DNA of 64,000 nt, from contig NC_079487.1 of NCBI RefSeq assembly GCF_020520425.1, positions 86,123,141 to 86,187,140 on the forward strand, in the 5' to 3' direction. Below, one piece after another: positions 5,248 through 57,203 of this stretch. Source of the stretch: Spinacia oleracea. Its lineage: Eukaryota; Streptophyta; Magnoliopsida; Caryophyllales; Amaranthaceae. Every line of letters starts with the position of its first letter. Positions within the stretch are counted from its first letter, which is position 1. The position numbers and the translations under genes are program-made. The notes beneath the pieces were generated by a model. The model was not told where the DNA came from. It worked only from the letters and a program-made list of their open reading frames with translations, and did no database searches.

Positions 5248-5874
5248 ATGAACAACCTTGTAACTTTCTTCACCTTTACCGTCTTGGTTTCTCTTTGTCA
5301 AGCTATTGAGCTCGACTTTTGTGTGGGAGATACTACTCTCCCAAGGGGACCTGAAGGATTCGCTTGCAAGGATCCTTCTAATGTAACCACTGATGATTTT
5401 GTTTTCACTGGTTTTCGCCATGAAAGCTTTACTGCAAATCTATTTAGAAGCAATGTCACGTTGGGGTTTGTAGATAATTTCCCTGCTTTGAATGGTTTAG
5501 GTATCTCTATGGCAAGGCTAGACTTTGCCGTTGGCGGAGTTATTCCTGTACATTCCCACCGAACATCAGAAGTTATAATCGTGACAAGAGGATCTATAAT
5601 TGCAGGATTCATTGACGCAAGTAATAATGCATTTTACAGAAGGCTCGAGGTTGGAGACGTTATGATCTTTCCACAGGCCATGCTTCATTTCCAAATCAAC
5701 GTTGGTAGAACCCCGGCTACTGCCATTGTTAGCTTGAACGGTGCTAACCCAGCTGTCCAATTTACCACCACCTCCTTATTTGCTGGCAATTTACCTGCTG
5801 ATATCGCTCAACAAATCACTCTTCTAGATCAAGGCGAGGTGATGAGAATGAAGAGGCTATTTGGCACTGCTTAA
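5248..5874 (+). CDS. Germin-like protein (auxin-binding protein ABP19/20-like subfamily)
   Basis: An intronless frame of 208 residues encodes a typical secreted germin-like protein of the cupin fold. A hydrophobic signal peptide covers about residues 1-19. Cys25 and Cys40 fit the conserved N-terminal disulfide pair. Germin box 1 (about 97-115) contains His102, His104 and Glu108, and box 2 (about 136-153) contains His147; these are the four manganese ligands of the family. Two N-glycosylation sequons are present (Asn45, Asn69). Length and the Gly-Thr-Ala C-terminus fit apoplastic germin-like proteins. Family members can be superoxide dismutases or have other cell-wall roles; the activity here is not known. 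A TATA box lies upstream at 5140 and AATAAA-like signals follow (about 6011). The second germin-like gene in the window (56571-57203) is its clear paralogue. The F-box gene converges on it with about 345 bp between stop codons. Confidence 0.94.
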   Translation: MNNLVTFFTFTVLVSLCQAIELDFCVGDTTLPRGPEGFACKDPSNVTTDDFVFTGFRHESFTANLFRSNVTLGFVDNFPALNGLGISMARLDFAVGGVIPVHSHRTSEVIIVTRGSIIAGFIDASNNAFYRRLEVGDVMIFPQAMLHFQINVGRTPATAIVSLNGANPAVQFTTTSLFAGNLPADIAQQITLLDQGEVMRMKRLFGTA

Positions 5875-8640: not shown

Positions 8641-9256
8641 TGGCGGAGGTTCGATTTTTTTTAATTTTTTATTATAGTGTAACTCGAATGCCGCCCAGAA
8701 TTAGCAGGTGGTGACCAAGGTGGCTCGCCCAGAAATGGTGGAACCCACTATGGCTCAGCCGCAGATCTTGGGTGGGTGAGCCATGGTGGAAGCCGCTCAA
8801 TCTGGGCGAGCCACCATGGTTTCCGTCCGCCAAAGGTGGACGACAGTTACATTTTTTTTATAAAAAAGCTTTGTTTATATTTTTAGAATTACTGGGTTAG
8901 CATCTTTACAAAAAAAAAAAATTATTTCTTACAAATTTAAATTCCATTTTATTTAACTATGAAATTCTGAAAAAATTGTGAAAAATTAAGAAATCTGATA
9001 AATTATTTTTTTATAAAAATCTGAAAAATTAAAAAATTATCTGTATAACAACAATTAACAAAAAAAAAAATCAAATATATATTCATAAATTTTAAAATAT
9101 TTATTTTATAATAATTAATTGTAATTCGAATATGGTAAAATAATTAATTTGAATTTGCTAAAATAAATCGTTTTTTAAAAAAATTCAAAATGGGGTTGAA
9201 AATAATAATTCAAATAAATAATTTAGTTTTTTTTTATTTTTAAGATGGAGTGCCGC

Positions 9257-11962: not shown

Positions 11963-11971
11963 TAATTTCTA

Positions 11972-13472
11972 CGGAAATTTCATGAAATGCCCTCGAGTTT
12001 TGCCATAATTCACCAAACGCCCATCAAGTTTCAATAATTCATAAAATACACCTCACAATTCGTACAAATACCCAACATACCCTTACTAATAACGGGCCGT
12101 TAGTCCGCCGTTAGCCAAGTTTCCAATTCACCCAAATGCCCCTATTCTGAAACTTATTTCACCAAATGCCCCTAGTAGGAAACTTATTTTACCAAATGCC
12201 CCAAATTTAAATATAGCTATTCTGATGTTCCGACAGCTAGTTTTTGTGTTTGAAAAGTGGTTCTTGGTCATGGTTGGCTATAAAAACCCCTTTGCTGAAT
12301 GGTTCTTGTATTTTAGATGTTATTTTACTTTACTTTGCTAATTTCATAAGATTTGTGTCATGAGTTTTCTTTCAAAATCATCTTCCACACCCAATGAGTC
12401 CACATATATTAGGGTACCTAACAATTTTTTTTATTGTGGTAGGAATGGAGGTTGAAGTGGTGTTCCACAAGCTCTTCTAGATAGCTGTTAATGCTTTTTG
12501 GGGTAGTTTTTTGCACATCTGTTTTGATCTTGCACATATTCATTGAGTAGAAAATAACATTAAATGTAGTTGGTGCAAAGATGTTTTGTAAGTGAAGCTA
12601 AAAACAGAAATGCTTCCCAGTTTGGTATTTTGTGCAGATTATGCAACATCAATTATTTATGAAATGTGAATTTGTTTCTCATTACTTGTGTTTACTTCAT
12701 GATTACAAACAGTAAAATTACAAACATCAATATCCCCATTTGTATTACAACTTTGACTACTTTTTGTTGTTGTTTTAGCTTCTTCTTCATTTGCTTCAAT
12801 TCTTCTTGCATCTTACTGTTTCGCCTGTTTTCAATACTTTCTCCTTCGCCTAAGCTTCCCCCGCATTGTCCTTCGTGTTGTTGCCCCTTGTTTTTTTGCT
12901 CAACTACTCCCTTTCACCATCTTAGATTGTTTCAAGGATCACACTTGTAGTACAACCTTTGTGGATTGAGTGTTGTATCAAAGCTTCGAATGACAAATTT
13001 CCTACCACAATGACAAAAATTGGTAGGTACTCTAGTATATGTGGACTCATTGGGTTTGGATGATGATTTTGAAAGAAAACTCATGACAAAAATCTTATGA
13101 AATTAGCAAAGCAAATCAAAATAACATCCAACTTACAAGAACCATTCAGCAAAGGGGCTTTTATAGTCAACCGTGACCAATAGCTACCTTTCAAACACAA
13201 AAACTAGTCGCTGAAACATCAAAATAGCTATACTTAAGTTTGGGGCATTTGGTGAAATAAGTTTCACAATAGGGGCATTTGGTGAAATAAGTTTCAGAAT
13301 AGGGGCATTTGGGTGAATAGAAAACTTGGCTAACGGCAGACTAACGGTCCGTTATTAGTAAGGGTATGTTGGGTATTTGTACGAATTGTGAGGGGTATTT
13401 TATGAATTATTGAAACTTGATGGGCGTTTGGTGAATTATGGAAAAACTCGAGGGCATTTCATGAAATATCCG
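11972..13472 (-). mobile_element. Mutator-like element with about 475-bp terminal inverted repeats carrying a gene fragment
   Basis: Long inverted repeats (about 11972-12446 and 12999-13472) start CGGAAATTTCATG and, in reverse, CGGATATTTCATG. They are flanked by an exact 9-bp target duplication, TAATTTCTA (11963-11971 and 13473-13481). The 1501-bp element has no transposase. Its unique centre and part of one arm carry a minus-strand GRF-zinc-finger gene relic, so it is a Pack-MULE-type element or a small TE-associated GRF gene unit. Confidence 0.9.
12692..13084 (-). pseudogene. GRF-type zinc finger protein relic inside the Mutator-like element
   Basis: Read from the ATG at 13084 on the minus strand, a single frame of 131 codons runs to TAA at 12692. 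It is broken by two in-frame TGA codons at about codons 51 and 57. Residues 24-48 match the plant GRF zinc finger pattern: CHCG, then about 20 residues, then YYKC. After the stops come a charged, probably coiled-coil segment (about 95-110, rich in Lys, Gln and Glu) and a C-terminal hydrophobic stretch (about 112-129), the usual layout of small plant GRF proteins. Both TGA codons are plausibly decayed Trp codons, one within an Asn-Leu-Arg-Trp context. The initiation codon and finger lie partly in the terminal inverted repeat. Function is not expected unless the stops are sequencing artefacts. Confidence 0.75.
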
Positions 13473-13481
13473 TAATTTCTA

Positions 13482-14424: not shown

Positions 14425-14447
14425 CTAGTCTTATATGCACGCGTTGC
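14425..14447 (-). mobile_element. Helitron-like 3' terminus (split by the LTR element)
   Basis: On the minus strand the sequence ends in CTAG followed by T, preceded by the hairpin GCACGC-GTT-GCGTGC. The hairpin is complete only if 14437-14447 is joined to the bases after the LTR retrotransposon (25890-25900). Hairpin plus CTAG is the Helitron 3' signature. Nearly the same end occurs at 27899. The 5' end was not located. Confidence 0.4.
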
Positions 14448-15980
14448 TGTAGACACCTACTTTTGTCCCCATTCCCGCAAGGGAAAGGTTCGATGATGAA
14501 AGCATAAAAACTCCACTTGATAACGCATCTCCTATAAAATAAACGAATCTCGATTCCCCATTTCATTTCACCCGAAACCTGCTATTTATGGAAACCTGCT
14601 AAAAATAGTAACTGCCGTAAAAGGTAGCGTCTAAAAGTGGCAAATCATAAAAGATAGAAACCTGTCAGAATTAGGTGTTGCACTCCAACATAAATCCTAA
14701 ATGAAATAGAAAATCGCGAGAATCCTATTCCTAATAGGATTCGGAAATAAGAGTTACGTATTAATTAAAATCCTAACGAACCTAGAGTTCGTAACGGGCC
14801 CAGACGCATTCCGTCACAAAATTGATACGCGCTAAAAGACTCGAATTAATCTCAAACTCTACGGATTTCAGGAATCCGAATATGACAAAGAATTCGGCCC
14901 AGACATCACTTTCAACGCCCATAGCTGGGCGCCGAAATCTTTGACTCCCAGCCCTGGGCGCTGAAATTACATGGATCTCTATTTTCAACGCCCAGCCCTG
15001 GGCGCCGAAATCTTTGACGTCCAGAGCTGGGCGCCGCAATTACCTGGGACGTGTTTTTTCCTAATTCTTTATGGATTAGAACTCTGCAATTCTATCTTTC
15101 CACGAACTCTTCCCTATAAATAGGCCCCTAGTTTCGACGTGAAAGGACACAACAACACATAATATATTCTGAGTATTGACTCTAAACCCCTTAGCCTAAG
15201 CCTCTCGCTGCGAAACTGTTCACGCGTTCTGTCGCAATCGATCCATAAATCGAACATAACGTATCCTGTCCCATAATTGAGATTCGTTAAATAAAAAGGA
15301 GAAATAGCAAAGTCAAAGTGGTTAGTTTTCTGAGAACCGTGACGCACCTCTCAAGGGTGCGTCGTAATGTGTCCCTTTTCGATGATTTAACTGCTTTCCT
15401 CGCCCTTTTTATGAACTGTTAAACTAACCTAATATGATTGTTCTGTCACGCCTAACAAATATAATATTTTTGGGAAATCGGATTATCATGCTAGGTCCCT
15501 TAATGTTATTTAAATCAGATAATCTCGATCGAATTAGTATTATATGTTGCATATTGCTAAAATCAACTCAGATTAGTTTAATAGTTAACGCATGTCCCTT
15601 CAATTATTTATGCTGAGCTAGTAAGGATATCCTGCCTCTGGAGTTATCGACGAGCGAATTACTCCTCTCGGTAGTTACAGTCCCCCGAACCCTCAATCTC
15701 TACCTTGCGGGTGTATATTGAGAGATCCCCACACCAGGGATCACAAGGGAACCTACGGCCGTCGTGGTCAAACATAATTGCACTCCCTTTATGTCACGAT
15801 AACCGGGTTTTGTCAGTTTTTCTCATTGTCGTTAAAAACTGAATGGCGACTCCTATATTACTAGTCAATTGGGTGTATACTCACAGGAAATCCAATTACA
15901 CTTGATTGAATCAAAAGAATCGTCACACCCACGAAGGACAAGGTCACGCATTAGCCTCGCGCTTTTTCGACCCCCTCACA
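14448..15980 (+). repeat. 5' LTR of the non-coding retrotransposon
   Basis: It matches the 3' LTR at 24357-25889 over its whole length with no net length difference. A TATA motif (TATAAATA, 15115-15122) is the likely element promoter. A cluster of GGGCGCC palindromes lies just upstream at about 14915-15045. The small minus-strand frame at 15114-15347 recurs in the other LTR and is not considered a gene. Confidence 0.95.
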
Positions 15981-24342: not shown

Positions 24343-24356
24343 AAGTGGGGGCTAAC
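24343..24356 (+). other. Polypurine tract of the non-coding LTR retrotransposon
   Basis: AAGTGGGGGCTAAC directly precedes the 3' LTR, as expected for the plus-strand primer. Confidence 0.75.
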
Positions 24357-25889
24357 TGTAGACACCTACTTTTGTCCCCATTCCCGCAAGGGAAAGGTTC
24401 GATGATGAAAGCATAAAAACTCCACTTGACAACGCATCTCCTATAAAATAAACGAATCTCGATTCCCCATTTCATTTCACCCGAAACCTGCTATTTATGG
24501 AAACCTGCTAAAAATAGTAACTGCCGTAAAAGGTAGCGTCTAAAAGTGGCAAATCATAAAAGATAGAAACCTTTCAGAATTAGGTGTTGCACTCCAACAT
24601 AAATCCTAAATGAAATAGAAAACCGCGAGAATCCTATTCCTAATAGGATTCGGAAATAAGAGTTACGTATTAATTAAAATCCTAACGAACCTAGAGTTCG
24701 TAACGGGCCCAGACGCATTCCGTCACAAAATTGATACGCGCTAAAAGACTCTAATTAATCTCAAACTCTACGGATTTCAGGAATCCGAATCTGACAAAGA
24801 ATTCGGCCCAGACATCACTTTCAACGCCCAGAGCTGGACGCCGAAATCTTTGACTCCCAGCCCTGGGGGCTGAAATTACATGGATCTCTATTTTCAACGC
24901 CCAGCCCTGGGTGCCGAAATCTTTGACGCCCAGAGCTGGGCGCCGAAATTACCTGGGACGTGTTTTTTCCTAATTCTTTATGGATTAGAACTCTGTAATT
25001 CTATCTTTCCACAAACTCTTCCCTATAAATAGGCCCATAGTTTCGACGTGAAAGGACACAACAACACATAATATATTCTGAGTATTGACTCTAAACCCCT
25101 TAGCCTAAGCCTCTCGCTGCGAAACTGTTCACGCGTTCTGTCGCAATCGATCCATAAATCGAACATAACGTATCCTGTCCCATAATTGAGATTCGTTAAA
25201 TAAAAAGGAGAAATAGCAAAGTCAAAGTGGTTAGTTTTCTGAGAACCGTGACGCACCTCTCAAGGGTGCGTCGTAATGTGTCCCTTTTCGATGATTTAAC
25301 TGCTTTCCTCGCCCTTTTTATGAACTGTTAAACTAACCTAATATGATTGTTCTGTCACGCCTAACAAATATAATATTTTTGGGAAATCGGATTATCATGC
25401 TAGGTCCCTTAATGTTATTTAAATCAGATAATCTCGATCGAATTAGTATTATATGTTGCATATTGCTAAAATCAACTCAGATTAGTTTAATAGTTAACGC
25501 ATGTCCCTTCAATTATTTATGCTGAGCTAGTAAGGATATCCTGCCTCTGGAGTTATCGACGAGCGAATTACTCCTCTCGGTAGTTACAGTCCCCCGAACC
25601 CTCAATCTCTACCTTGCGGGTGTATATTGAGAGATCCCCACACCAGGGATCACAAGGGAACCTACGGCCGTCGTGGTCAAACATAATTGCACTCCCTTTA
25701 TGTCACGATAACCGGGTTTTGTCAGTTTTTCTCATTGTCGTTAAAAACTGAATGACGACTCCTATATTACTAGTCAATTGTGTGTATACTCACAGGAAAT
25801 CCAATTACACTTGATTGAATAAAAAGAATCGCCACACCCACGAGGGACAAGGTCACGCATTAGCCTCGCGCTTTTTCGACCCCCTCACA
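24357..25889 (+). repeat. 3' LTR of the non-coding retrotransposon
   Basis: It has the same 1533-bp length as the 5' LTR, with about 20 scattered substitutions. Several of these fall in the GGGCGCC palindromes (for example GCTGGGCGCC became GCTGGACGCC). It is followed by the target duplication GTTGC. Confidence 0.95.
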
Positions 25890-32956: not shown

Positions 32957-34396
32957 TGTTGGTTCTGCGTTTTGATGATGAAAACGCAAACTTCCTAATT
33001 ATTGTTTAAGTGTGTTATTGTAATGCTAAGTTAGGGAGTGCCTGAGTTGGACAAACTAAGCATGTGGAACAAACACCAAGCAATATAAGGAGCTCCTAAA
33101 GAATCGATCAGTGTGCAAATGTTATCAATGGTTGATCCTTAGGAAGTTGATCCTCAAGAAGTTGATCCTCAAGAGATTGATCCTCAAAGAGGTTGATCCT
33201 CAACGAGGTTGATCCTCTAAGAGGTTGATCCTCAAAGAAGGTTGATCCTCAAGAAGGTTGATCCTCAAGATGGTTGATCCTCAAAGTGGTTGATCCTCAA
33301 CGGTTGATCCTCAACGGCTGATCCTAAACAAGTTATTAAGAGTGTTCCTCATATATTATGAGAATCATCATTGTTTCGGAGAAGGAACAATGCATGAAGC
33401 GTTCAGGGGAAGCTTCAAAAGGTTCCAACATGAAAGCTACAACATATGAGTTTATGTTTAGATTTTGTGTAAGTATTTTAATATCGTTTATGCATAATAT
33501 GGAACAAAAGGAACACGTGCATTTTAATACGTTTTGAGAAAATAGTTTTTGTAAATAAAATAAAGTTTTATAAAGGAAAAATCTTTGGCAAATAAATAAA
33601 ACGATTTTAATAAAATCAGCATTGGATTCTGATTCAGAATTCCTTGTTTTCCAAGAAAAGGTTTTTACTTGTTCCTAAAACGACTCCCACTATTTTTTCT
33701 GAACTGAACGTGTTAAAAGTGGTTTGAAAAAGTCTTCCTGTTTCTCTCAATCAACGTGCACGTTACTGCTCCCAGTAACTGTTAGTGGTAGTTGAGGAGA
33801 ACATGGGAAACTGACCTAGGAAGTTCTTCTATAAAAGGAAAAGAATTTTCATTTCTCAAATCACTACTGACAACGTGTAATATTTCTAAAGAACTTAAGA
33901 GTTTTTATAAAAGTCAGTTTACAAAAGAGCGTGTTCCTCAAAGTTCCTTTATTGTACATAAGCTTTATTGAATACTAGAGTTTTCATAATTCGAGTTGTA
34001 ATTGTGGGGTTAAGGATCGAGTGATCCTTGAGTTGTGGGGTTAAGGATCAAGTGATCCTTGAGTTTTAAGTGTAAGGGTTGAGTGATCCTTAAAGTGACT
34101 TAGAGGCAAGTCAGCGAGAGAGTGTGAAATGAGCAAGCACAGTAATCAACGGGGATTGCTGTGGGGAACTCGTGTTCAAGTGGAACTCGAGTTGTTGAGT
34201 GTATTGTATTCGAGGCATTGCAATATATAAAGAGGTTGAGGTTTTCCTTCTTGATTAGTGTCAAGAAGGTTCCTCATTTTCACATTCTTCTTGTTTATTG
34301 ATCGTTGTTCCTTTAACGTTTAAATTCCGCAAGAAACGTACTAAATTCCTCAAAACAATTCACCCCCCTCTTGTCAGTGTTCCTACTGAACTATCA
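32957..34396 (+). repeat. 5' LTR of the copia element (1440 bp)
   Basis: It begins TGTTGGTTCTGCG and ends ACTGAACTATCA. It contains a minisatellite of GGTTGATCCTCAA(A/G) units (about 33125-33330) and a TATA motif (TATAAAAGG, 33830-33838). The homologous 3' LTR is longer, mostly because it has about twice as many minisatellite units. Confidence 0.95.
33125..33330. repeat. GGTTGATCCTCAA minisatellite in the 5' LTR
   Basis: About a dozen 13-17-bp units vary at the spacer (AAGAA, AAGAG, CGAG, AAGT). Confidence 0.9.
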
Positions 34397-34398
34397 GT

Positions 34399-34410
34399 TG
34401 GTATCAGAGA
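34399..34410 (+). other. Primer-binding site of the copia element
   Basis: TGGTATCAGAGA starts two bases after the 5' LTR. It matches the initiator-methionine tRNA primer site typical of plant Ty1-copia elements. Confidence 0.85.
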
Positions 34411-34462
34411 AGGATCTCACAAAAATACAGGAAACCCTGTTGAGAAAAAGTTCCTGGAAAGT

Positions 34463-36325
34463 ATGAACACTCACAAGAAACTCGAAGAAGGTTATTCAAC
34501 TCAAAGACCTCCTATGTTCAACGGAAAATTCTATACCTATTGGAAGAACAGAATGAAGATCTTTATCAAGGCAGCGAACTATCAAGTTTGGCGAGTCAAA
34601 GAAGTCGGTAACTTCGAGGTAACAAAAACCAATGCTGAAAATGAGGTAGTTCCTAAACCTATTTCTGAATTTGTGAAAGAAGATTTTGAAAAATATGAAA
34701 TCAATGCTATGGCTGTTAAGATTTTGCATTGCGGCCTTGGACCTCATGAACACAATAGAGTCATGGGGTGCAAGAGCGCAAAGCAAATCTGGGATCTCCT
34801 TCAAGTAACACATGAAGGAACAAATGAGGTCAAACGTTCTAAAATTGATTTACTGATGTCTAAATATGAACGTTTTGAAATGCATCCACAAGAAACAATT
34901 CAGGAGATGTTTACTCGTTTCACTAACATTACTAATGAACTTGTTTCCCTTGGAAGAATTATTCCCTCTGATGAACAAGTTAGGAAAGTTCTAAGGAGCA
35001 TGCCTCAAGATGATCGATGGAGAACCAAGGTCACTACATTGTTTGAAATCAAGGATTTCACCAAATTCAATATTGAGCAACTGGCAGGATCCTTAATGAC
35101 ACATGAACTACATCTAAGAGCAGCTGTTCCTGAGAATCCCAAGAACCAAGGTCTTGCTCTTAAGGATGAGGAAATGGAGGATTCAGAACCGGATGAAGAA
35201 GGGGCTGCCACTTTGGTCAGAAGGATGAAAAGATTATACAGAAACCTCAGACCTGGAAATCAAAAAGCAAGGAACTCCGGAAGAAGAACAATTGGTTCCA
35301 AATCCGACCAAGGATGCTTCAAGTGCGGTGATCCTGACCATCAAATCCGGGAGTGCCCTCAGTGGGAAAATCAAAAAGGAAAAGGAAAGGATCAAGTCAA
35401 AGAAAGATTTAACAAACCCACCTTTTCCAAACCCAAAAAGGCAATGATTGCAGCATGGGGAGACGTTACAGACTCGGAGGACGATGATAACCAACCAGAA
35501 AAAGAAACTGCCAACCTATGCCTCATGGCAAAGATTGATGGAACAATGCAAGATCCGTTAAACGAGGTAAGTTCCACAATCTCTCAATCTTTGTCTAATA
35601 ATAGGTTAATTGAATCACCGATTAAAACTCTAGTTATTTTTAAAAAGCTTAGTGCAATAAAGGAACAAAGTAATAAGGCATTGGAGCCCAGTAAAGATCA
35701 CATGACCTACCTAAATAATGTTAGATATGAGGTACATGGTAGGTTCTTGGAACTGCCTGACAGGAACAACTCTCTTAAAGACTCTTTTAGAAGAGTTAAA
35801 AATGTACATACTAATCTTGATGAAACTAATAATATTGATGAAGTTCAGGAACAAGAGGATTTCGAACTTGGTTTGATTCACTTTACAGATGCAAATAAAA
35901 GGATAGATGAACCAGTAATTCAAGAAATCAAAGCGAATCAGGGAGTACCTGTGCAAGAGGAACAAGCAAAAAATCAAGGTGTTCCTATGCAAGAGGAACA
36001 AGCAGAAAATCAAGGTGTTCCTGTGCAAGAGGAACAAGCAGAAAATCAAGGTTTTCCTATGCAAGAGGAACAAGCAGAAAATCAAGGTGTTCCTGTGCAA
36101 GAGGAACAAGCGGAAAATCAAGGTGTTCCTATGCAAGAGGAACAAGCAGAAAATCAAGGTGTTCCTATGCAAGAGGAACAAGTAGAAAATAATCTGGAAG
36201 TTCATGTTCAAGAGGAACAAGCTAATCAAGAGGTTCCTATCCGAGAGGAACAAGCAGAAAATACTGGAGTCTCCGTTCAAGAGGAACAAGAGGAACAAGG
36301 AACTCCAGGATCAAGAGTAACTTAA
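34463..36325 (+). CDS. gag: Copia gag polyprotein with a C-terminal 12-residue repeat domain
   Basis: The chosen start (Met at 34463) lies after the primer site and begins MNTHKKLEEG; the frame stays open upstream into the LTR, so the true start is uncertain. The protein has about 620 residues. The N-terminal two fifths match the copia gag domain (PPMFNGKFYTYWKNRMKIFI near 14-33; a KQIWDLL motif near 106). A CCHC zinc knuckle follows at Cys285, Cys288, His293 and Cys298 (CFKCGDPDHQIREC), the nucleic-acid binding element of the nucleocapsid. From about 492 to the stop there are seven near-identical copies of a 12-residue unit of the type NQGVPMQEEQAE and three degenerate ones, encoded by 36-bp DNA repeats. 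Gag would form the particle that packages element RNA. Protease and integrase, which should follow, are missing. Confidence 0.88.
   Translation: MNTHKKLEEGYSTQRPPMFNGKFYTYWKNRMKIFIKAANYQVWRVKEVGNFEVTKTNAENEVVPKPISEFVKEDFEKYEINAMAVKILHCGLGPHEHNRVMGCKSAKQIWDLLQVTHEGTNEVKRSKIDLLMSKYERFEMHPQETIQEMFTRFTNITNELVSLGRIIPSDEQVRKVLRSMPQDDRWRTKVTTLFEIKDFTKFNIEQLAGSLMTHELHLRAAVPENPKNQGLALKDEEMEDSEPDEEGAATLVRRMKRLYRNLRPGNQKARNSGRRTIGSKSDQGCFKCGDPDHQIRECPQWENQKGKGKDQVKERFNKPTFSKPKKAMIAAWGDVTDSEDDDNQPEKETANLCLMAKIDGTMQDPLNEVSSTISQSLSNNRLIESPIKTLVIFKKLSAIKEQSNKALEPSKDHMTYLNNVRYEVHGRFLELPDRNNSLKDSFRRVKNVHTNLDETNNIDEVQEQEDFELGLIHFTDANKRIDEPVIQEIKANQGVPVQEEQAKNQGVPMQEEQAENQGVPVQEEQAENQGFPMQEEQAENQGVPVQEEQAENQGVPMQEEQAENQGVPMQEEQVENNLEVHVQEEQANQEVPIREEQAENTGVSVQEEQEEQGTPGSRVT
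35937..36300 (+). repeat. 36-bp coding minisatellite in gag
   Basis: The unit AATCAAGGTGTTCCTATGCA plus AGAGGAACAAGCAGAA is repeated about seven times almost perfectly and three more times with changes, always in frame. Confidence 0.95.
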
Positions 36326-36719
36326 GGAGTTCAAAGAACAGAAGCAACTGAAGAAACTTTGGATGTTCCCATGGCTCAAATTCAACGTAAACCATGGAAA
36401 CTTCAGAGTTCCCATCAAATGGAACTAATCGTCAGCAACATTGTAAGGAGAACTCAAACACTAGTAGAAAAAACATCATTTGCAACTCTCCTCTTGCAAC
36501 TCAGCTAATCTGCGAATGTTGCAAAATGTCATGGTCAACGCGGGTCAAAGGTTAAATGATTTAATTACAACTTTTATGGGCTATCAAACGATGCAATTAT
36601 TGGAAAAAAAAAATCAACGGTGCATTCTTAGCGCACCCAGTGAGCCCACACTGCGAATCGGCCGTGTATTGCAACTCCAACCAAACAAACGCGCTGCTTG
36701 AACCTTCATCAGATCTAAA

Positions 36720-37000
36720 ATTTTAGCTCCCTCGTTCTCCCTAGAACTCTCCGCCCATTTCATGTCAAATCCTATAATTCGCCATCTCTCTATTCTCCTT
36801 GATACCGCTTTCTTCCAAATCGTTCAATGGGTTTTTTTGATAAATCGCGCTTTAATCCTGTTTCTTCCAACTCTCATAATCTAGATGAGTAGAATATTTT
36901 CATCTCTTACAATTTTGTGTTATATTTTCAAGCCGATCTATAGAGAGAGAAGGATGTCGACCTCGTGCTACACTCGACGTTCGCTTCGGCTATTGCGGTA
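36720..37000 (+). pseudogene. Possible captured 5' leader and first exon, gene unknown
   Basis: A pyrimidine-rich leader-like stretch is followed by an ATG at 36954 opening a 15-codon frame (MSTSCYTRRSLRLLR). That frame runs into a good splice donor (GCG|GTAAGG near 36999), and T-rich intron-like sequence follows. The gene is not recognised. It might be the 5' end of the FAHD1-like gene whose inner exons follow about 1 kb downstream, but FAHD1 similarity is not visible in this exon. Confidence 0.4.
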
Positions 37001-37984
37001 AGGTTTCGGTTTTTAAACTCTTCGTTTTCTTCGAATTTATGATTTATGAAGATTCGCTGATTTAATTGCTGAATTGTTGGTGATTTAATGTTCTTCGTTT
37101 TAGTTGTTAATTTGATGAAAATCTGGTGGGTTCTGTTAATTTACAAAATGCAATTAAAATAAAAATCTACTACTAAGTCGAAATCCTTTTCCATGATATG
37201 GGGAAAACCCTATGTTAAACTGATTCGGGTCATTTTATGGTTTGATTTGTTGTTTTTGATGTTATTTAGGTCGATCTTGTTGAATTTGTGGTCAAATTGG
37301 TTTGGGATCTTGGATTTCTTATCTTTTTGGAGGAGATAGTTTTCATCCAGTGTGACTATGGGCAGTCATGTGGTGGTAAGGCCGTAAGGGTGGGGAAGGT
37401 CCGAAGGGGGAAGATGAGAAGGAGATAGACGGGAGAGATGAGAAGGAGATAGATTGGAGAGATACACGAAAGAGGAGGGAGGGTGCAGGGTAAGGGGTGT
37501 TGTGTCGATTGATATGGGCTTGCAGAAGGTGTTTTAGGAGGGATACCAACAAAATTATACACAACCAAACCATCAGAGCATAGCCAACAGTACACTGAAT
37601 CATTGATTAGTAGTTTCATTGTTCACGGAGAAAATTTCAAAGCTAACCGTGGAATAGCAATGCTGCAGCATATTCTAACTCAGCAGCCGTTTATTTCAAT
37701 AAATAAAATCCAATCCAGATGCGTTTGTTATGTGAATCCACAGTGAAAGATGTCCTTCACCTTTTTGTTTGGAATGGAATGTGAGACCAAACCAGAGTAT
37801 AATTTAAACACATCAATTAGTCACAGTGTAAGTGGATTCTTTGCTTAAATAGAAATCTTTCCATTTTCAGTATTCCTGTTATCTATACAGTCAATTTATA
37901 ACATTATCATTAAAACTATAGTATGTGAACTTTCAGATACTTCCCTGACATTTTGTTTCACATTTTCTCCTTTCCTTCTATTAG

Positions 37985-38386
37985 GCAACAGGCATTCCAT
38001 GGCTACTAGCTAAAGGACTCGACACGTTTACCTCTATCAGTGAAATGGTAAGATATATCGAATTCGACAAATAACTAGGATAGCATATGGCAGATCATTT
38101 ATCCTTGGTTTGTCAATTTTGTGCAGATTCCTGTATCTACAGTGCCTGATCCTCATAACTTGGAGCTGTGGTTGGATGTGAGTTCAACTCTGTAATTAAA
38201 TACATTCTATGTACTTGTTTGTGATTGTATTAATAAAAATGTAAACAAGTTTAATTATATGAAAAAAGGTTGATGGAGAATCGAAGCAGAAAGGATCAAC
38301 AAAAGACATGATATTCAAAATCCCATTCCTGATTAGCTACATCAGTTCTTTCATGACACTTATGGAAGGAGATGTCATCCTAACAG
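37985..38386 (+). pseudogene. Captured FAHD1-type acylpyruvase fragment, three exons
   Basis: Three exon-like blocks are bounded by AG and GT and can be spliced in one frame: 37985-38047, 38127-38177 and 38269-38386. They encode WLLAKGLDTFTSISEM, then PVSTVPDPHNLELWLD, then VDGESKQKGSTKDMIFKIPF and a stretch ending EGDVILTG. This is the central catalytic-domain sequence of plant FAHD1 homologues (fumarylacetoacetate hydrolase domain family, mitochondrial acylpyruvase or oxaloacetate decarboxylase). The start and the C-terminal end of the gene are absent, so no enzyme can be made. The introns are retained, so capture was from genomic DNA and not from mRNA. Confidence 0.85.
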
Positions 38387-38389
38387 GTA

Positions 38390-40128
38390 CGAGCTTGGTA
38401 TGACTCAACCTCAATGACACAATTTCTTCCTTACCCCAATTCAATAATACTTGTAGAATTCTTCGTTTACTGTCAGAACAAAAAGCACTAGTGCGCCAAA
38501 TATACCAATAGTATTGATTCAAAATTTTAATTATTTGAATTTACAAAAGTTTTAAGCTTAGGATAATTTTAGTTTAACACTTTACATGTTTCACATATGG
38601 TAGAACATCGGGTAATGAGTCCTCACAGGTCGGGTAATAACAATAACAACATGTTTTGGGTTACAATCGTTTTCTGGTTCGTAGCGGGTCAGGTGTTGAT
38701 CGGGTTCCGATCACTTTCGGGTCGGGTCAATTTGATTATCGATCATCTTTCTGTCGAGTTCGGGTTTGGGTCATACAACATCGGTTGTCAGTTTTATCGG
38801 GTTGGGTACAGATTAGGTTAAGGGTTTCTTGTTTTACCCAAATTTCAGGTATAAGTCAGTTACGGGGTTACGAATACAGGTTGGTTCAGTTGTGGTTCTT
38901 AGGTTGGGTCAGTTTTGACATCTCTACGTAGTATGTGCTATTCTATAATTTCTAAATGAAAAGTATATAATTAAGTTATGCTTACTTTGGGGGATTTGGA
39001 GGTGTATTACACTAATACAGTAGCAGATTGTACGAGCAACTCTTAGCGTTAAGGTTGGATTTCGTCGTTATCATAAATTGTTTTATGGTTTCTTTTATTA
39101 TCAGATCTGTGATTTTTGGTATCAATTTTACTCGTAGGTTTTCTTGATTTTACACAAAAATCTCAAACAAAGGAGAACGAAAACTACGGAGAAGAAGAAC
39201 TCGCCGATCTCTACTAGGGTGAGTTTCCAAATCCTGATGCTTCAAAGGTCACCTTTTATGGTTCTTTTTGTCATTTGTGTGGATTTAGCTCTTTCTTTTT
39301 TAATTAATGTGCTTTTCCATTGAGATATGGCAGACCATGTCATGGTTGTGGTTGTAAGAATAAATCTTGTTACTTATGCAAGCCGAATTTATGAGATAAC
39401 TTGATTCTTTAGTGTTCTTGAACTTTTGTGTTTTATGAGATAACTTGATTGGATGAGCTAGGTTGGGTTAGATTTAGTGATGTATTTTGTGTTGGGAGTA
39501 AGTTGGTTGTATTCTTGCCGAGGCTATAGAAACCATGATGTTCACCATGTGTGATTAGGTCACTCTATCTTGCTGTTGAATTTCTGTTTGATTGGTCGAT
39601 GGACGTCTTCTCAGAATTTTGGTCATCTTTAGAGCAATTACCTAGAACTCAATTGGCTATTTAACTACTTTCTTAGTTGCATGAGGTTGTGATAATGTGC
39701 TAGGTCTGATCTATGCAAAGATCCTTTAAAGATGAACTGCTGCCATTGGGAATTCTTTCTCTTTTTTTTTACATAACGGAAACTTAAGAGTTAATTTTCC
39801 AATCCTAGTCATTCACGTGGTATTCAAATGGTTGAGTTACAATATTTTGTTGTTGATGCAACAGATTTTATCCCACTCTCCAGTGCTTATCCCAATTTTT
39901 TTTGTTGATTGTAAATTATTTCACTTTCAATGCTCATCGTCCTTCTTTGTTTATCTTAAACTGAATTCCTAGGGTAATACTCTGTGTTGTCTGTACATGG
40001 TTTATAAGGCTTGGTTGTTTTAAAAACTCATAAGGACTCTCCAGTGCTTCTTGTTTTGCAATGTGGTGTTTACTGTTTATTCCATTTTGAACTAATATCC
40101 TCTGATACTTGTTTCATCCTGTTAATAG
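38390..40128. other. Non-coding interior of the Pack-CACTA element
   Basis: It includes a GGGTC/GGGTTCGG-rich stretch (about 38600-38930) similar in composition to the ACCCGA-rich hAT elements read in reverse, ending near TTTGACATCTCTA. A further leader-like, splice-donor-ending stretch lies at about 39140-39220 (CGCCGATCTCTACTAG|GGTGAG). The latter may be the 5' end of the captured syntaxin gene; that is a guess. Confidence 0.4.
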
Positions 40129-40471
40129 CCACAAGACAAGGTTACATATTGGGCAATTAGTAAAGGATACTTCAGATAAACTCAAACAAGCAAGTGACAC
40201 AGATCATGGCAATAATGTCAGTGTAAGTATATTTTCAACACTTCAGATTTATGGACTGCATACCTTCCTCAATTGGGTATTAATGCGTTCCCGAGCCAAA
40301 TTTTGATTTCATCTTCCTTCCATTTATCCAGGCAAACAAGAAGATTGTTGACGCAAAACTTGTAAAATATTTCCAAGCAGTTTTGAAGGAATTCCAGAAG
40401 GCTCAACGTCTTGCGGCAGAACGGGAAACATCATATACCCCTTTGATTCCTCAGGCTGTCCTTCCTTCTAG
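40129..40471 (+). pseudogene. Captured SYP2-type syntaxin (Qa-SNARE) fragment, two exons
   Basis: Two blocks with consensus splice borders (40129-40222 and 40332-40471) encode HKTRLHIGQLVKDTSDKLKQ, then KKIVDAKLVKYFQAVLKEFQ followed by KAQRLAAERETSYTPL. This is the N-terminal three-helix (Habc) region of plant vacuolar/prevacuolar syntaxins of the SYP21/22/23 group. The SNARE helix and membrane anchor are absent. One substitution stands out by eye: KYFQ where family members usually have KDFQ. Confidence 0.87.
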
Positions 40472-41427
40472 GTACTTAGTTGTTTCAGAAAATTGTGTAT
40501 TTAGTACTCATGTAGTGACATGTCATCCAGCTGTTACTCCTAAATGATACATTCGATTATTCAGGATCATCTTTGTATAGCTTTTAGTCAAACATTGAGC
40601 GTCTTTGTTCATGAGTCACAAATAAAGTAGCTATTGTTATCATTTTTCCATCATCGAAGTTTTCTAGTCTACTGTGAAAAAAAGACAAGAACTTTCACTA
40701 ATGTGCAATCATCTTATATTCTACTTTTGGTTGCACTCTTTTGTGAAGAAAATCTGAGAGTGTGTACTCTTCTAATGTTTGAGTGTGCATGTGTGTCTTG
40801 TGCTTGTGTGCGTGCATATTTTTAGGAGTTATAATAAATTTTACTCTACCTTCTGTATTGTTTAAGAACTTTAATTCTTATGACCTTATCCATTTTTGTT
40901 TGGAATCAAAGTCAAAATTCCAAAGTTTATCTAGAACTTTAAACTTACTACAGTTTCATTTGTAGTTATAAATTACCGACCGCCAATTTTTGTGTAATTG
41001 AATCCCGTGCAACTCCATCTTCTTTACTTTATTAGCTTGGATGGAAATCCTAATGTTGTTAGCATCAAACATCAGAAGTCCCTCTGGACCCGTGATCCTT
41101 TCTAACCCCATACAACTCCCATACAACTAGTGAGTCATTACAGCTAGTAAGGAATCATCTGATTTGCTGCTCTGATTTGTTGCTCTATTGTACTGCGTTC
41201 TGAACTAATTTGCTATTCTGCTAGCTTTTCCTAACCTGATTTCATGTAACTAAGCTGAGCTGATCTGATTTTTGCTAGTTTTAAGGAGTTTGTTATTGCT
41301 TGTTAGTTGGGATTGCTGAATTATCTATGTAAAAGATTGGGATTGCTGTAAGGTTTGGGATTACTGAATTTATGGTTTCTGCCTTCCTCTGGTCATTATA
41401 GTTTTCTTATTTGGATTAGTTTTTCAG
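40472..41427. other. Non-coding interior between captured fragments
   Basis: T-rich intron-like sequence, possibly from the syntaxin or WD40 donor genes. No further exon was recognised. Confidence 0.35.
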
Positions 41428-41831
41428 TTACGATGTACATATCGAGCTTTTGATGCTATGAATGAGATTACTGCAGCCTTTTCAATTGCTTTCAACCCTA
41501 CTGGAACCAAGTATATACCATCATATGCTTGGAGAATTCTTTGTTGCCTTGCTCTTCTGGTTTTTACTTTCATGTATTTGTATCTTGTCAAATTCAAGTG
41601 TTGAACACCATCTAATTCGAGGACTATACCTGAATTGTGTGCAATGTTTACATGATTTGGCAGAAATGATTTAGCGGTTTGTCTTATTCTCATCTTTTCT
41701 CATGTTACTCAATTCCTTCGCAGGATATTTGCTGGGTACAACAAAACACTGAGGGTGTTTGATGTACATCGCCCTGGCGGAGATTTTAAACAACATTCAA
41801 CTCTTCAAGGATCCAAAGAAAGGGCAGTCTG
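41428..41831 (+). pseudogene. Captured WRAP53/TCAB1-like WD40 fragment, two exons
   Basis: The first block (41428-41510) encodes CRYRAFDAMNEITAAFSIAF and NPTGT. A lysine codon split by the intron joins it to the second block (41724-41831), which encodes IFAGYNKTLRVFDVHRPGGD and FKQHSTLQGS. The pattern matches WD40 blades of the telomerase Cajal body protein 1 (WRAP53) family. In animals this family binds CAB-box RNAs and telomerase RNA; the plant function is less defined. Most of the propeller is missing. Confidence 0.8.
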
Positions 41832-42004
41832 GTACAGCATTCTACCTTTTCACATAATTGAACAACTTTTGCGAAGGTTTTTTTATTGTTTTAGAAGTTT
41901 GTTCAAGCTAAATTTTAGTTTAGGGCTTAAAAGAAGAATCTTGGTGGTTGATAAGAAAAAGATTCCAAGTTCCTAAACTCACGTGAACTTGTTTTTAGAA
42001 CTTC

Positions 42005-42120
42005 TACTAGTAGAAAAAACCTCATTACCAACTCCTCATTCGCAGCATTCACTAATTGATCTCGGTGCAATAGCTTATGGTCAATGCGGGTCAATGAATA
42101 AATGAGGGCTAGAAATGCAA
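42005..42120 (+). mobile_element. Internal second copy of the CACTA 5' terminus
   Basis: TACTAGTAGAAAAAACCTCA at 42005 repeats the element's own left end (CACTAGTAGAAAAAACATCA at 36459) with the first base changed. It is followed by similar subterminal sequence (AACTCCTC, GCAGCATT, ATGGTCAATGCGGGTCAA versus ATGGTCAACGCGGGTCAA at 36530). It marks the start of what may have been an independent 1.67-kb element ending at the same right terminus. Confidence 0.75.
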
Positions 42121-42737
42121 GTCTCAACTTTGGTATGTGTTGAATCTTGAATGTTTGGCTATCATAAATTCGTAGCCTTTTAGCAAGCATTAGGAAAGAG
42201 TGCTTGCTCTTTACTAATGAAACGAGTTAGGTTAACGATACAGTTGGAAATTTAGCGGGAGCGAAGTACTGGGAACTGTTTCATGTTTGATACAGTTAGG
42301 TTAACAGTACTAGGTTAACGATACAGTTGGAAATTTAGCGGCACCCTACATTTTCGATGTTAAGTTTTATGTTTGATTTGTGAATTGTTTTTGTTCAACT
42401 TGCTTTTGTGTTTGATCTTAATTTTTACCAATTCTTTATTAAAAAAATTCAATTGCCAATTTGATTGATTAGTTTGATAGATCATTGAATTAATTGCCAA
42501 AGATCTGTTTATTTGAAATTTTGTACGAAATCAATTGATGTATGCCGATTAGGGTTTAGTTTTAAAAATTTCCTAAATTGTTTCTTTGTTGATTATCTTT
42601 TTATTATCTAAGTACATAAATTTTGTATGCTGCTGGTCAACATTTTGTACGTGATCCTAATATAAAAAATGCATAGGCGAGGTACATACCTGATATTGTT
42701 TTCTCTATTCTGGTTGCTTTTGGATGTTCAAATTTAG

Positions 42738-43180
42738 TATGATGTCATGATCGCTGTGATCTTTGGAACAGGAACCAATGTGTGTTATGTGGAGAGGACG
42801 GATGCCATTCCTAAGCTGCCTGGCCAAATATCAAAGTCGGGAACAACTGTAAGCCAGAATCACTTCACTTAAAGATTTCTCACTAACTCTTTTTTTCACT
42901 ACGTAATCTGTAATTTCTATATCAATGAATGGGGAGCATTTTCGACTGGACTTCTGTTGACTGAATATGATAGGGGAATGGATGCTGCTAGCATCAATCC
43001 TGGTGAGCAGGTATTTAGTGGCTTAGCATCAGAACTTATGCTTTTAAATCTCTGGACTCTGGTAATTATTTGCATGATGTTGTTACAGATATTTGAGAAA
43101 ACAATATCATGTATGTACCTCGGCGAGATTGTGAGGAGGGTGGCATGGGAAGATTTCTCACTAATATCGAGCAAGCAGTG
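42738..43180 (+). pseudogene. Captured hexokinase fragment, three exons
   Basis: Block one (42738-42848) encodes GTGTNVCYVERTDAIPKLPG. Block two (about 42915-43010) encodes NEWGAFSTGLLLTEYDRGMD and AASINPGEQ. Block three (43089 to about 43180) encodes IFEKTISCMYLGEIVRRV. This order and spacing match exons of plant hexokinases in the second, larger domain (glucose-binding and adenosine-side region). The acceptor before block two looks degraded, and after block three the frame loses similarity (AWEDFS). The protein would be non-functional. Confidence 0.87.
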
Positions 43181-43389
43181 AGCTACAGAACATTCTTTAA
43201 GTATTGTAATTAACATGTTTCTGATAGGTCAAGTTAATTCACCAATATATTTCAAATTTATCACATTGGCACTACTTTTTGTGGATGTTATTTATGTATT
43301 TATGGATGTTAGAACATAATTATGGAGGCTAGTACCGAGTAGTAGTACCAATGTATTAATGTAGGAATTTATTTTTTTTGTAAAATAAA

Positions 43390-43660
43390 TGCACTATTTG
43401 CAGCGCGCACTGTTAAACCAAAGTTGCAAATTGTGGCAGAAAATTCCCTTTGAAAATCTCTTTTTGCAATGCCTATGCACATCAGCGCTGCAAATAGACA
43501 CTAATTGCAGCGCGTGTGAAACACCATGCGCTGCTATTAATGGTTTTTTGCAGCGTTTATGTTCGCTGCAAATAAAAGTCAATTATTTGCAGCCATCACA
43601 ATTGCAGCGCTCAAAAACGCTGCAAAAAGCCCCTTTTATGCGCGCTGTAAATGATATTTT
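43390..43660. repeat. CACTA subterminal repeat cluster (GCAGCG motifs)
   Basis: The motif TTGCAGCGC and its complement GCGCTGCAAA occur about ten times in mixed orientation. Such subterminal clusters are the transposase-binding regions of CACTA elements. An open frame crossing it into the retrotransposon is accidental up to 43671. Confidence 0.8.
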
Positions 43661-43674
43661 TTCTACTAGTGAAA

Positions 43675-46433: not shown

Positions 46434-46602
46434 TGTTGATTCTGAGTTTTGATGATGACAACGCAAACTTCCTAATTATTGTTTAAGTGTGTTATTGTAA
46501 TGCTAAGTTAGGGAGTGCCTGAGTTGGACAAACTAAGCATGTGGAACAAACACCAAGCAATATAAGGAGCTCCTAAAGAATCAATCAGTGTGCAAATGTT
46601 AT

Positions 46603-46998
46603 CAATGGTTGATCCTCAGGAAGTTGATCCTCAAGAAGTTGAACCTCAAGAGATTGATCCTCAAAGAGGTTGATCCTCAACGAGGTTGATCCTCTAAGAG
46701 GTTGATCCTCAAAGAAGGTTGATCCTCAAGAAGGTTGATCCTCAAGATGGTTGATCATCAAGATGGTTGATCCTCAAGATGGTTGACCTAAAGATGGTTG
46801 ATCCTCAAAGTGGTTGATCCTAAAGATGGTTGATCCTCAATGTGGTTGATCCTCAATGTGGTTGATCCTCAAAGTGGTTGATCCTCAAATTGGTTGATCC
46901 TCAAAGTGGTTGATCCTCAATGTGGTTGATCTTCAAAGTGGTTGATCCTCAAAGTGGCTGGTCCTCAACGGTTGATCCTCAACAGTTGATCCTAAACA
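46603..46998. repeat. GGTTGATCCTCAA minisatellite in the 3' LTR, expanded
   Basis: About two dozen units of 13-17 bp, with spacers AAGT, AAGATG, AATGTG and AAGAAG, against about a dozen in the 5' LTR. Confidence 0.92.
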
Positions 46999-48307
46999 AG
47001 TTATTAAGGGTGTTCCTCATATATTATGAGGATCATCAATGTTCCGGAGAAGGAACAATGCATGAAGCGTTCAAGCGAAGCTTCAAAAGGTGCCAACATG
47101 AAAGCTACAACATATGAGTTTATGTTTAGATTTTGTGTAAGTATTTTAATATCGTTTATGCATAATATGGAACAAAAGGAACACGTGCATTTTAATACGT
47201 TTTGAGAAAATAATTTTTGTAAATAAAATAAAGTTTTATAAAGGAAAAATCTTTGGCAAATTAATAAAACGATTTTAATAAAATCAGCATTGGATTCTGA
47301 TTCAGAATTCCTTGTTTTCCAAGAAAAGGTTTTTACTTTTTCCTAAAACTACTCCCACTATTTTCTCTGAACTGAACGTGTTAAAAGTGGTTTGAAAAAG
47401 TCTTCCTGTTTCTCACAATCAACGTGCACGTTACTGCTCCCAGTAACTGTTAGTGGCAGTTGAGGGGAACATGGGAAACTGACCTAGGAAGTTCTTCTAT
47501 AAAAGGAAAAGAATTTTCATTTCTCAAATCACAACTGACAACGTGCAACATTTCTAAAGAACTTAAGAGTTTTTATAAAAGTCAGTTTACAAAAGAGCGT
47601 GTTTCTCAAAGTTCCTTTATTGTACATAAGCTTTATTGAATACTAGAGTTTTCATAATTCGAGTTGTAATTGTGGGGTTAAGGATCGAGTGATCCTTGAG
47701 TTGTGGGGTTAAGGATCAAGTGATCCTTGAGTTTTGAGTGTAAGGGTTGAGTGATCCTTAAAGTGACTTAGAGGCAAGTCAGCGAGAGAGTGTGAAAGGA
47801 GCAAGCACAGGAATCAACGGGGGATTGCTGTGGGGACTCGCACTAGTACATAATGAACCTTAAGTAACACCCAAAAAGTGATACATAAAGTGGTAAAAAT
47901 GTTACTATAGACAATAGGTAACACTTTAGTGGGTGATACATCCGCCCATGTTCCCTAAGGTCTTATGTAACACTTTGGGTAACGTATGGTAACACTTTTA
48001 AAAGTGTTACTATAGACCCTCTTATGTAACACTTTTTTATATCATTGGTATCATTTTTAAAGTGTTACCTTTTATTTCTTATGTAACACTTATTTATCTA
48101 TAGTAACATTTTTCAATCATATAGTAACACTTTATTCGACATTATGTATCACTTTTATGAACTAATGTAACACCTTATTAATTATTAGGTAACATTTTTT
48201 AATCATTTTTTGACATATAGTAACACTTTATTCGACATCATGTATCACTTTTTGCAAACTAATGTAACACCTTTTTTAATTAATAGGTAACATTTTTATT
48301 TTAAAGT

Positions 48308-56570: not shown

Positions 56571-57203
56571 ATGAATATCCTTGTAGTTTTCTTCACATTT
56601 TCTCTCTTGATTCCCCTCAGTTACACCGCCATTGAATTCGACTATTGTGTAGGAGATCCTAAACTCCCCACATCACCAATCGGGTATTCTTGTAAAGACC
56701 CTGCTCAAGTCATAACAGATGACTTTGTTTACACTGGTTTTCGTGGCGAAATAACCACCGCAAATATATTCAAAGCTAATGTGACATTTGCATTTGCGAA
56801 TACATTCCCAGCTTTGAATGGTTTAGGTATAGCTATGACTAAGGCAGAAATCGGTGTAGGTGGAGTTATACCAGCTCATACCCACCGAACAACAGAAATT
56901 ATTGTCGTACTTAAAGGGTCAATAATTGCAGGATTCGTTGACACAAACAACACTGCATATTATAAGAGACTTGAGGTTGGAGACGTTATGGTTTTTCCTC
57001 CGACAATGATTCATTTCCAAGTGAATGTTGGTAAAACTCCGGCTAGTCTATACGCTAGCTACAATGGCGCAAACCCAGGGGTCCAACTCATTTCCCCCGC
57101 CTTATTTGCTAGCAAAATACCTACTGAACTCGTTGCACGAATCACTTTTATTAGTCCTCTTGAGATAACGAGGATTTCAAAGATTCTTTTTGGCACTGCT
57201 TAA
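56571..57203 (+). CDS. Germin-like protein (auxin-binding protein ABP19/20-like subfamily), paralogue
   Basis: An intronless frame of 210 residues, collinear with the protein at 5248-5874 and clearly homologous along its length. A signal peptide covers about 1-20. Cys26 and Cys41 are the disulfide pair. The manganese ligands are His103, His105, Glu109 and His148 in the two germin boxes (GGVIPAHTHRTTEIIVVLKG; GDVMVFPPTMIHFQVNVG). Sequons lie at Asn70 and Asn126. Differences from the paralogue concentrate in the signal peptide, around 55-75 and in the C-terminal third. The protein is expected to be a secreted cell-wall oligomer; enzymatic activity is not determined. A TATA box at 56478 and an AATAAA cluster at about 57270 frame the gene, which appears intact. 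Confidence 0.94.
   Translation: MNILVVFFTFSLLIPLSYTAIEFDYCVGDPKLPTSPIGYSCKDPAQVITDDFVYTGFRGEITTANIFKANVTFAFANTFPALNGLGIAMTKAEIGVGGVIPAHTHRTTEIIVVLKGSIIAGFVDTNNTAYYKRLEVGDVMVFPPTMIHFQVNVGKTPASLYASYNGANPGVQLISPALFASKIPTELVARITFISPLEITRISKILFGTA

Follow-up and report, generated by a model that had tools for sequence, protein, structure and literature searches.

A composite Pack-CACTA transposon in spinach carries fragments of four host genes and probably arose by fusion of related elements

Introduction

How does a single transposon come to hold pieces of several unrelated genes? The way in which CACTA elements collect them is unsettled, and the question is raised directly by one locus in the genome of Spinacia oleracea. 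The window, i.e. the whole 64-kb stretch of DNA analysed here (C1:86123141-86187140), had been read from its letters alone as containing one CACTA transposon that had captured fragments of four host genes. We compared this window with protein and RNA families, with itself and with the spinach genome (894,210,420 bases, 242 contigs; loci were read on six large contigs). In the genome search, 40 of 735 candidates were scored, 56 matches were listed and 30 were made into loci, and all resulting counts are minimum values.

Results

The element occupies positions 36459–43671 (forward strand; 7,213 bp). It starts with CACTAGTAGAAAAAA at 36459 and ends at 43671 with the exact inverse of that sequence (15/15 bases), whilst the agreement between its terminal 26 bases is 92%. 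A 3-bp target duplication (AAA/AAA), as in the CACTA class, flanks these ends. The outer left end with its subterminal region spans 36459–36559 (forward strand) and the right end 43372–43671 (reverse strand), the latter with eight subterminal GCAGCG/CGCTGC motifs in 300 bp. Allowing up to two mismatches, the window held three end matches, the third being an inner one at 42005. Three of 100 shuffles likewise gave three matches, so the identification of the ends rests on their exactness, pairing and duplication and not on this count. A six-frame Pfam scan (E up to 1) detected no transposase between 36459 and 43671, returning hexokinase, syntaxin and FAA-hydrolase alone, and no Rfam family was found in the element. 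The sequence-only reading of a 7.2-kb CACTA with exact ends, a 3-bp duplication and no transposase was thus confirmed, and the element is a non-autonomous CACTA with captured host genes, i.e. a Pack-CACTA.

Protein searches likewise supported the earlier identification of four intron-bearing fragments on the same strand, all of them forward: a FAHD1 acylpyruvase fragment (37911–38390; exons 37985–38047, 38127–38177 and 38269–38386), a SYP2-type syntaxin fragment (39247–40936; exons 40129–40222 and 40332–40471), a WRAP53/TCAB1 fragment (41366–41990; exon blocks 41428–41510 and 41724–41831) and a hexokinase fragment in two parts. The first of these parts (42105–42274) comprises, from its translations, the end of one exon, an intron and the start of the next exon; the second (42739–43151) comprises blocks running to 42848, from 42919 to 43010 and from 43089 to 43139. 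Pfam E values were 9.4e-25 for FAA_hydrolase, 1.9e-16 for Syntaxin_2 and 5.3e-24 for Hexokinase_2. The WRAP53 identity comes from a PDB match to telomerase Cajal body protein 1 (1.1e-14), the Pfam WD40 match being below cut-off. For the syntaxin fragment the PDB match was not strong (0.33); its donor gene begins MSFQDLEAG. Scans of the three forward frames against PDB (E up to 0.5) returned FAA-hydrolase-family proteins including FAHD1, hexokinases and, weakly, WRAP53. All ten exon blocks lie on the forward strand and lack a stop in the expected frame. In the first exon model, 18 of the 19 splice sites considered had canonical sequences, a count that excludes the uncertain opening block and the truncated outer edge of the final one. 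Close to its end, the second WRAP53 block carries a single additional base relative to a copy at C6:57.646 Mb, whose reading still matches TCAB1 at that point, so its final codons have probably lost the frame. That four fragments share one strand has by itself a chance of 1 in 8.

Two further stretches of the left part were distinguished. The region 36954–37543 contains an ATG followed by 44 bases of open frame and a GT donor, plus a block (37048–37543) repeated in whole or in part at C1:33.2, C6:80.65 and C4:130.73 Mb and elsewhere; this region may represent either a fifth capture or old CACTA sequence. The block 38578–38833, rich in GGGTCGGGT and missing from the relatives at C3:118.84 and C4:174.99 Mb, is probably a later insertion.

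We located the donors of three of the four fragments at nucleotide level, introns included. The FAHD1 donor is C1:132355144-132355658 (85.9% over 519 columns, 43 of them gaps), a second FAHD1 gene on C5 reaching only 69%. The SYP2 donor lies within C6:149238390-149241277, matching in three blocks (89.7, 83.1 and 93.1%). The hexokinase donor at C6:84.205 Mb (93.6% to the first part of the fragment, 86.4% to the second) stood out clearly among the five candidate regions compared, a set without the further hexokinase gene at C4:180.252 Mb. The expectation that each block would map to its own parent gene therefore held for FAHD1, SYP2 and hexokinase, at separate loci; for WRAP53 only further fragments were recovered. 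The 625-bp WRAP53 block (41366–41990) also occurs at C6:57.646, C2:68.241 and C5:64.176 Mb, and C4:130.73 Mb has the greater part of it; three of the WRAP53-block loci contain none of the other fragments within 1.5 kb on either side. The C6:57.646 Mb locus was considered as the WRAP53 gene but not accepted, as 3.6 kb there matches TCAB1 only at residues 257–298 and 291–332, the same two exons, and a set of motifs used to look for further WRAP53 exons gave none. This copy extends beyond the window copy at the exon end and may be closer to the WRAP53 gene. Separately, another hexokinase fragment (profile 70–115, one TGA inside) occurred with near-equal score in at least 15 places on C2, C3, C4 and C6, and a fragment of profile 181–241 with a TAG in at least six places among the matches listed; another repeat seems to have amplified those pieces.

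The inner left end (42005–42105, forward strand) begins with TACTAGTAGAAAAAA in the window. Positions 42006–42105 align to 36460–36559 of the outer left end at 73.5% over 102 columns (E = 1.2e-9 in the window). This inner end, together with a direct repeat of 31 bp and an inverted copy of 28 bp that are described below, scored above the best of 100 shuffles in each case (direct repeats 57.2 and 53.6 bits against 32.8; inverted repeat 47.3 bits against 34.6). Homology to the hexokinase donor starts at 42105, where left-end homology ceases, so that 42005–43671 is organised like a complete CACTA element with hexokinase cargo. All 15 bases of the inner end are intact, as CACTAGTAGAAAAAA, in the copies at C1:61.69 and C4:136.21 Mb; the window copy has a change at the first base and the copy at C4:97.47 Mb at the fifth. 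The motif AACTTC precedes the inner end in four copies. A T before the inner end, together with a 14-bp palindrome, TTCTACTAGTAGAA, was tried as a junction between a right end and a left end and was rejected: two other copies read CACTAGTAGAAAAAA behind an identical AACTTC flank, so the T at the inner end is a point change. Self-comparison of the window revealed no remaining right end upstream of 42005. A mutated or deleted internal terminal repeat is a trait of tandem fusion, and the single changed base agrees with it, although on a strict reading the two intact relatives oppose it. Of the proposal that one CACTA captured four genes, capture with introns retained therefore stands, whereas the single transposon now looks like two or more fused CACTA units.

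The hexokinase part also bears signs of local rearrangement. An insert of 464 bp (42275–42738) lies within a hexokinase exon, the donor being continuous there apart from two bases (donor-region positions 648 to 651), and in the C4:136.21 Mb copy this insert is ~850 bp long. The 31-bp local repeat (42228–42258 and 42311–42341) is situated at the insert, and 42678–42705 (reverse strand) is the 28-bp inverted copy of hexokinase exon sequence 43095–43122 (27/28). In place of the 28-bp filler of the window, three relatives keep between 340 and 351 bases, which are alike. We read the 28 bp as probable templated repair filler at a deletion of ~350 bp; its interpretation as a capture event was discarded, since the relatives keep ~350 bp there. 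A 15-bp repeat (42872 and 43150; 28.3 bits) fell within the shuffle range and was likewise set aside.

Further copies, whose existence the sequence-only reading had suggested checking, were found. A full-length copy lies at C4:97473550-97480751, differing at 131 of 7192 aligned bases (1.8%; 97.8% identity by BLAST) and flanked by GAA/CAA with one mismatch. Its location at a different site shows that the composite was mobilised as a unit. Just 2 bp separate its left end from another CACTA right end, which lies to the left and is oriented alike (region position 8855; 1047 on the reverse strand); this is the tandem state that a fusion model requires. At C1:61.69 Mb, 39013–43671 is present at 97.9%. 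Other relatives share one half of the element. The complete 5,515-bp element at C4:140.33 Mb (AGT/AGT) has the left part of the window element up to 39596 and a different right part, the last 318 bases of its right end being 84% alike, and elements at C3:118.84 and C4:174.99 Mb are of the same type. Conversely, the complete 4,852-bp element at C4:90.1 Mb (TTA/TTA) has SYP2, hexokinase and the right end in common with the window, has a different left part and gave no WRAP53 match. Homology to the SYP2 donor continues across 39596, the breakpoint of the left-half relatives, which may therefore be derived and not ancestral. From these comparisons we conclude that halves were apparently exchanged within the element family, in an order that is unsettled.

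The insertion site lies within a Copia retrotransposon and not in a gene. When 240 and 330 flanking bases were joined with one AAA kept, they gave an open frame, NIVRRTQTRSQLRNF, leading into Copia reverse transcriptase; the RVT_2 match (6.8e-33) is downstream of the element, after 43675, and a gag ORF (34298–36325) is upstream. LTR-like copies of this host lie at 32957–34172 and 46434–47840 (both forward strand), with 35 differences in the 1005 positions that lie beyond a tandem array. Matching duplications are absent at the outer borders of these two repeats, so their pairing rests on layout and similarity. At substitution rates of 7e-9 to 1.3e-8 per site and year, the divergence corresponds to some 1.4 to 2.5 million years, which sets a maximum age for the CACTA insertion. 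The sequence-only reading had mentioned neither the Copia host nor the left end at 42005, the 31-bp direct repeat and the 28-bp inverted copy.

Elsewhere in the window we observed an inverted repeat (11970–13474; 476-nt arms, 92% complementary, spacing 553 nt) and a 300-nt direct repeat (14447–14746 and 24356–24655; 99% identical) that possibly represents the ends of another retrotransposon. Two ORFs with cupin domains (5248–5874 and 56571–57203; 208 and 210 aa), which resemble germin-like proteins, stand ~51 kb apart.

Exon identity to the donors was 222/231 for FAHD1 and 219/231 for SYP2, with dS ~0.10 for both and pairwise dN/dS below 1 (0.22 and 0.37, respectively). With the C5 gene as outgroup, the element branch accumulated ~4 nonsynonymous and 1.5 synonymous FAHD1 changes and the donor branch 0 and 3.5, a comparison that used fewer sites for the outgroup and involves small numbers. 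A chimeric protein is not supported by the spliced blocks, whose frame shifts at each of the three changes of donor and once more inside hexokinase. Among the other copies, the second WRAP53 exon is frameshifted at C4:97.47 Mb, and stops interrupt the WRAP53 exons at C4:136.21 and C4:130.73 Mb.

Discussion

We consider it about 75% probable that this Pack-CACTA was built by fusing at least two related CACTA units carrying host DNA. The right-hand unit would be 42005–43671, in which a CACTA left end was joined directly to the hexokinase fragment and a right end, and units or host segments with the FAHD1, SYP2 and WRAP53 pieces would have come to stand upstream of it. A transposase acting in trans could then have used the outermost left end together with the last right end, bypassing the inner left end, and the composite would have moved as one piece, in this instance into the Copia retrotransposon. 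Several observations weigh against such a fusion. In two copies the inner end has kept its 15 bases without change, whereas the published model lets inner ends mutate or vanish; the WRAP53 donor gene was not found; and the left part may have been assembled through template switching. Since no right end lies upstream of 42005, the first unit's own end must, in a fusion, have been lost. Among the loci read, we saw no stand-alone unit corresponding to 42005–43671 with both ends and no cargo in front.

An unlikely alternative is that the fragments were gathered serially in one element by template-switching repair, during gap filling after excision or fork stalling, with the inner left end copied from a sister element. 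The inverted hexokinase copy and the 31-bp repeat do point to templated repair within the element, and the text available from PMC8277862 reports, for animal Pack-TIRs, models of gap filling and fork stalling that involve microhomology. However, the filler is better read as later repair than as capture, given the longer sequence that the three relatives keep in its place, and serial gathering fits poorly with a left end that runs straight into hexokinase and with complete elements that share halves. A single uptake of four blocks already together at one ancestral locus, the circumstance that the sequence-only reading had named as fatal to capture, would suit their tandem arrangement on one strand, yet it is vanishingly improbable: it is ruled out for the FAHD1, SYP2 and hexokinase donors, the first being on C1 and the other two on C6, 65 Mb apart, and at three loci the WRAP53 block has none of the others within 1.5 kb on either side.

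The captured exons are, on the available sequence, best read as passengers. That the element instead yields a useful chimeric transcript, a protein or a regulatory RNA against the donors seems very unlikely. Canonical splice sites, stop-free blocks and the low pairwise dN/dS ratios would agree with such a role, as would the captured exons of the soybean element Tgm-Express1, which are spliced into host transcripts (PMC1947982, in the text available). Against it, those ratios blend donor and element branches, and the nonsynonymous FAHD1 changes fall, in small numbers, on the element branch; the first hexokinase block represents one half of a donor exon that the insert has cut in two; the spliced frame breaks at the changes of donor, and the frame is also disrupted in other copies by a frameshift or by stops; and the site is a retrotransposon. 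For annotators, the four gene-like stretches are a warning, as they are transposon passengers.

To a more tentative idea we give somewhat less than even odds: the family may preserve a natural series of stages of multi-gene capture, with complete elements swapping whole halves around shared host exons and bypassed inner ends staying intact for a time. If true, gene pieces would spread mainly via transposon recombination, fresh capture from genes being rare. As a single genome holds the three donors, the composite with its inner end, another full-length copy and relatives that share one half, sequence comparison could reveal the order in which the events took place.

Our limited literature search found no report of this spinach composite element, although multi-gene Pack-CACTAs and capture by tandem fusion have already been published. 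Wheat chromosome 3B alone has 140 CACTA capture events, according to the accessible part of PMC4290129. The part seen of PMC8903248 describes Pack-TYPE elements with several loci and acquisition via fusion of neighbouring insertions; that paper and PMC13317346, as far as their available text goes, credit the tandem-fusion model to Catoni et al. 2019, and the latter, a 2026 review, allows in the same text that an undiscovered mechanism may exist beside it. A close structural parallel is Tgm-Express1 in the soybean wp allele, a 5.7-kb CACTA that contains exonic and intronic parts of five unrelated host genes, similar in size to the spinach element and likewise carrying multiple unrelated gene pieces (PMC1947982, available text). 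Tgm-Express1 lies in an F3H intron and is spliced into F3H transcripts, whereas the spinach element lies in Copia; an internal transposon end is present in the latter and goes unmentioned for Tgm-Express1 in the portion of that article seen.

Jozin, a CACTA from Chenopodium pamiricum, has a left end that differs from that of the spinach element at 2 of 28 positions (by eye, from the available part of PMC8978399), and its Chenopodium hosts belong to the same plant family as spinach. Jozin encodes a transposase and the spinach element none, and the captures of Jozin described in that part are Neprosin fragments and an 80-bp AP2 piece. With Pack-CACTA and Pack-TYPE elements of Arabidopsis, maize and rice, as presented in the accessible text of PMC8903248, the spinach element shares CACTA ends, a short duplication, the lack of a transposase, coding DNA from multiple loci and, probably, tandem fusion. 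Unlike them, its inner left end persists, with 15 bases intact in two copies, and three of its four donors are mapped in the same genome. The spinach element is a well-preserved example of a known route of exon shuffling in plants.
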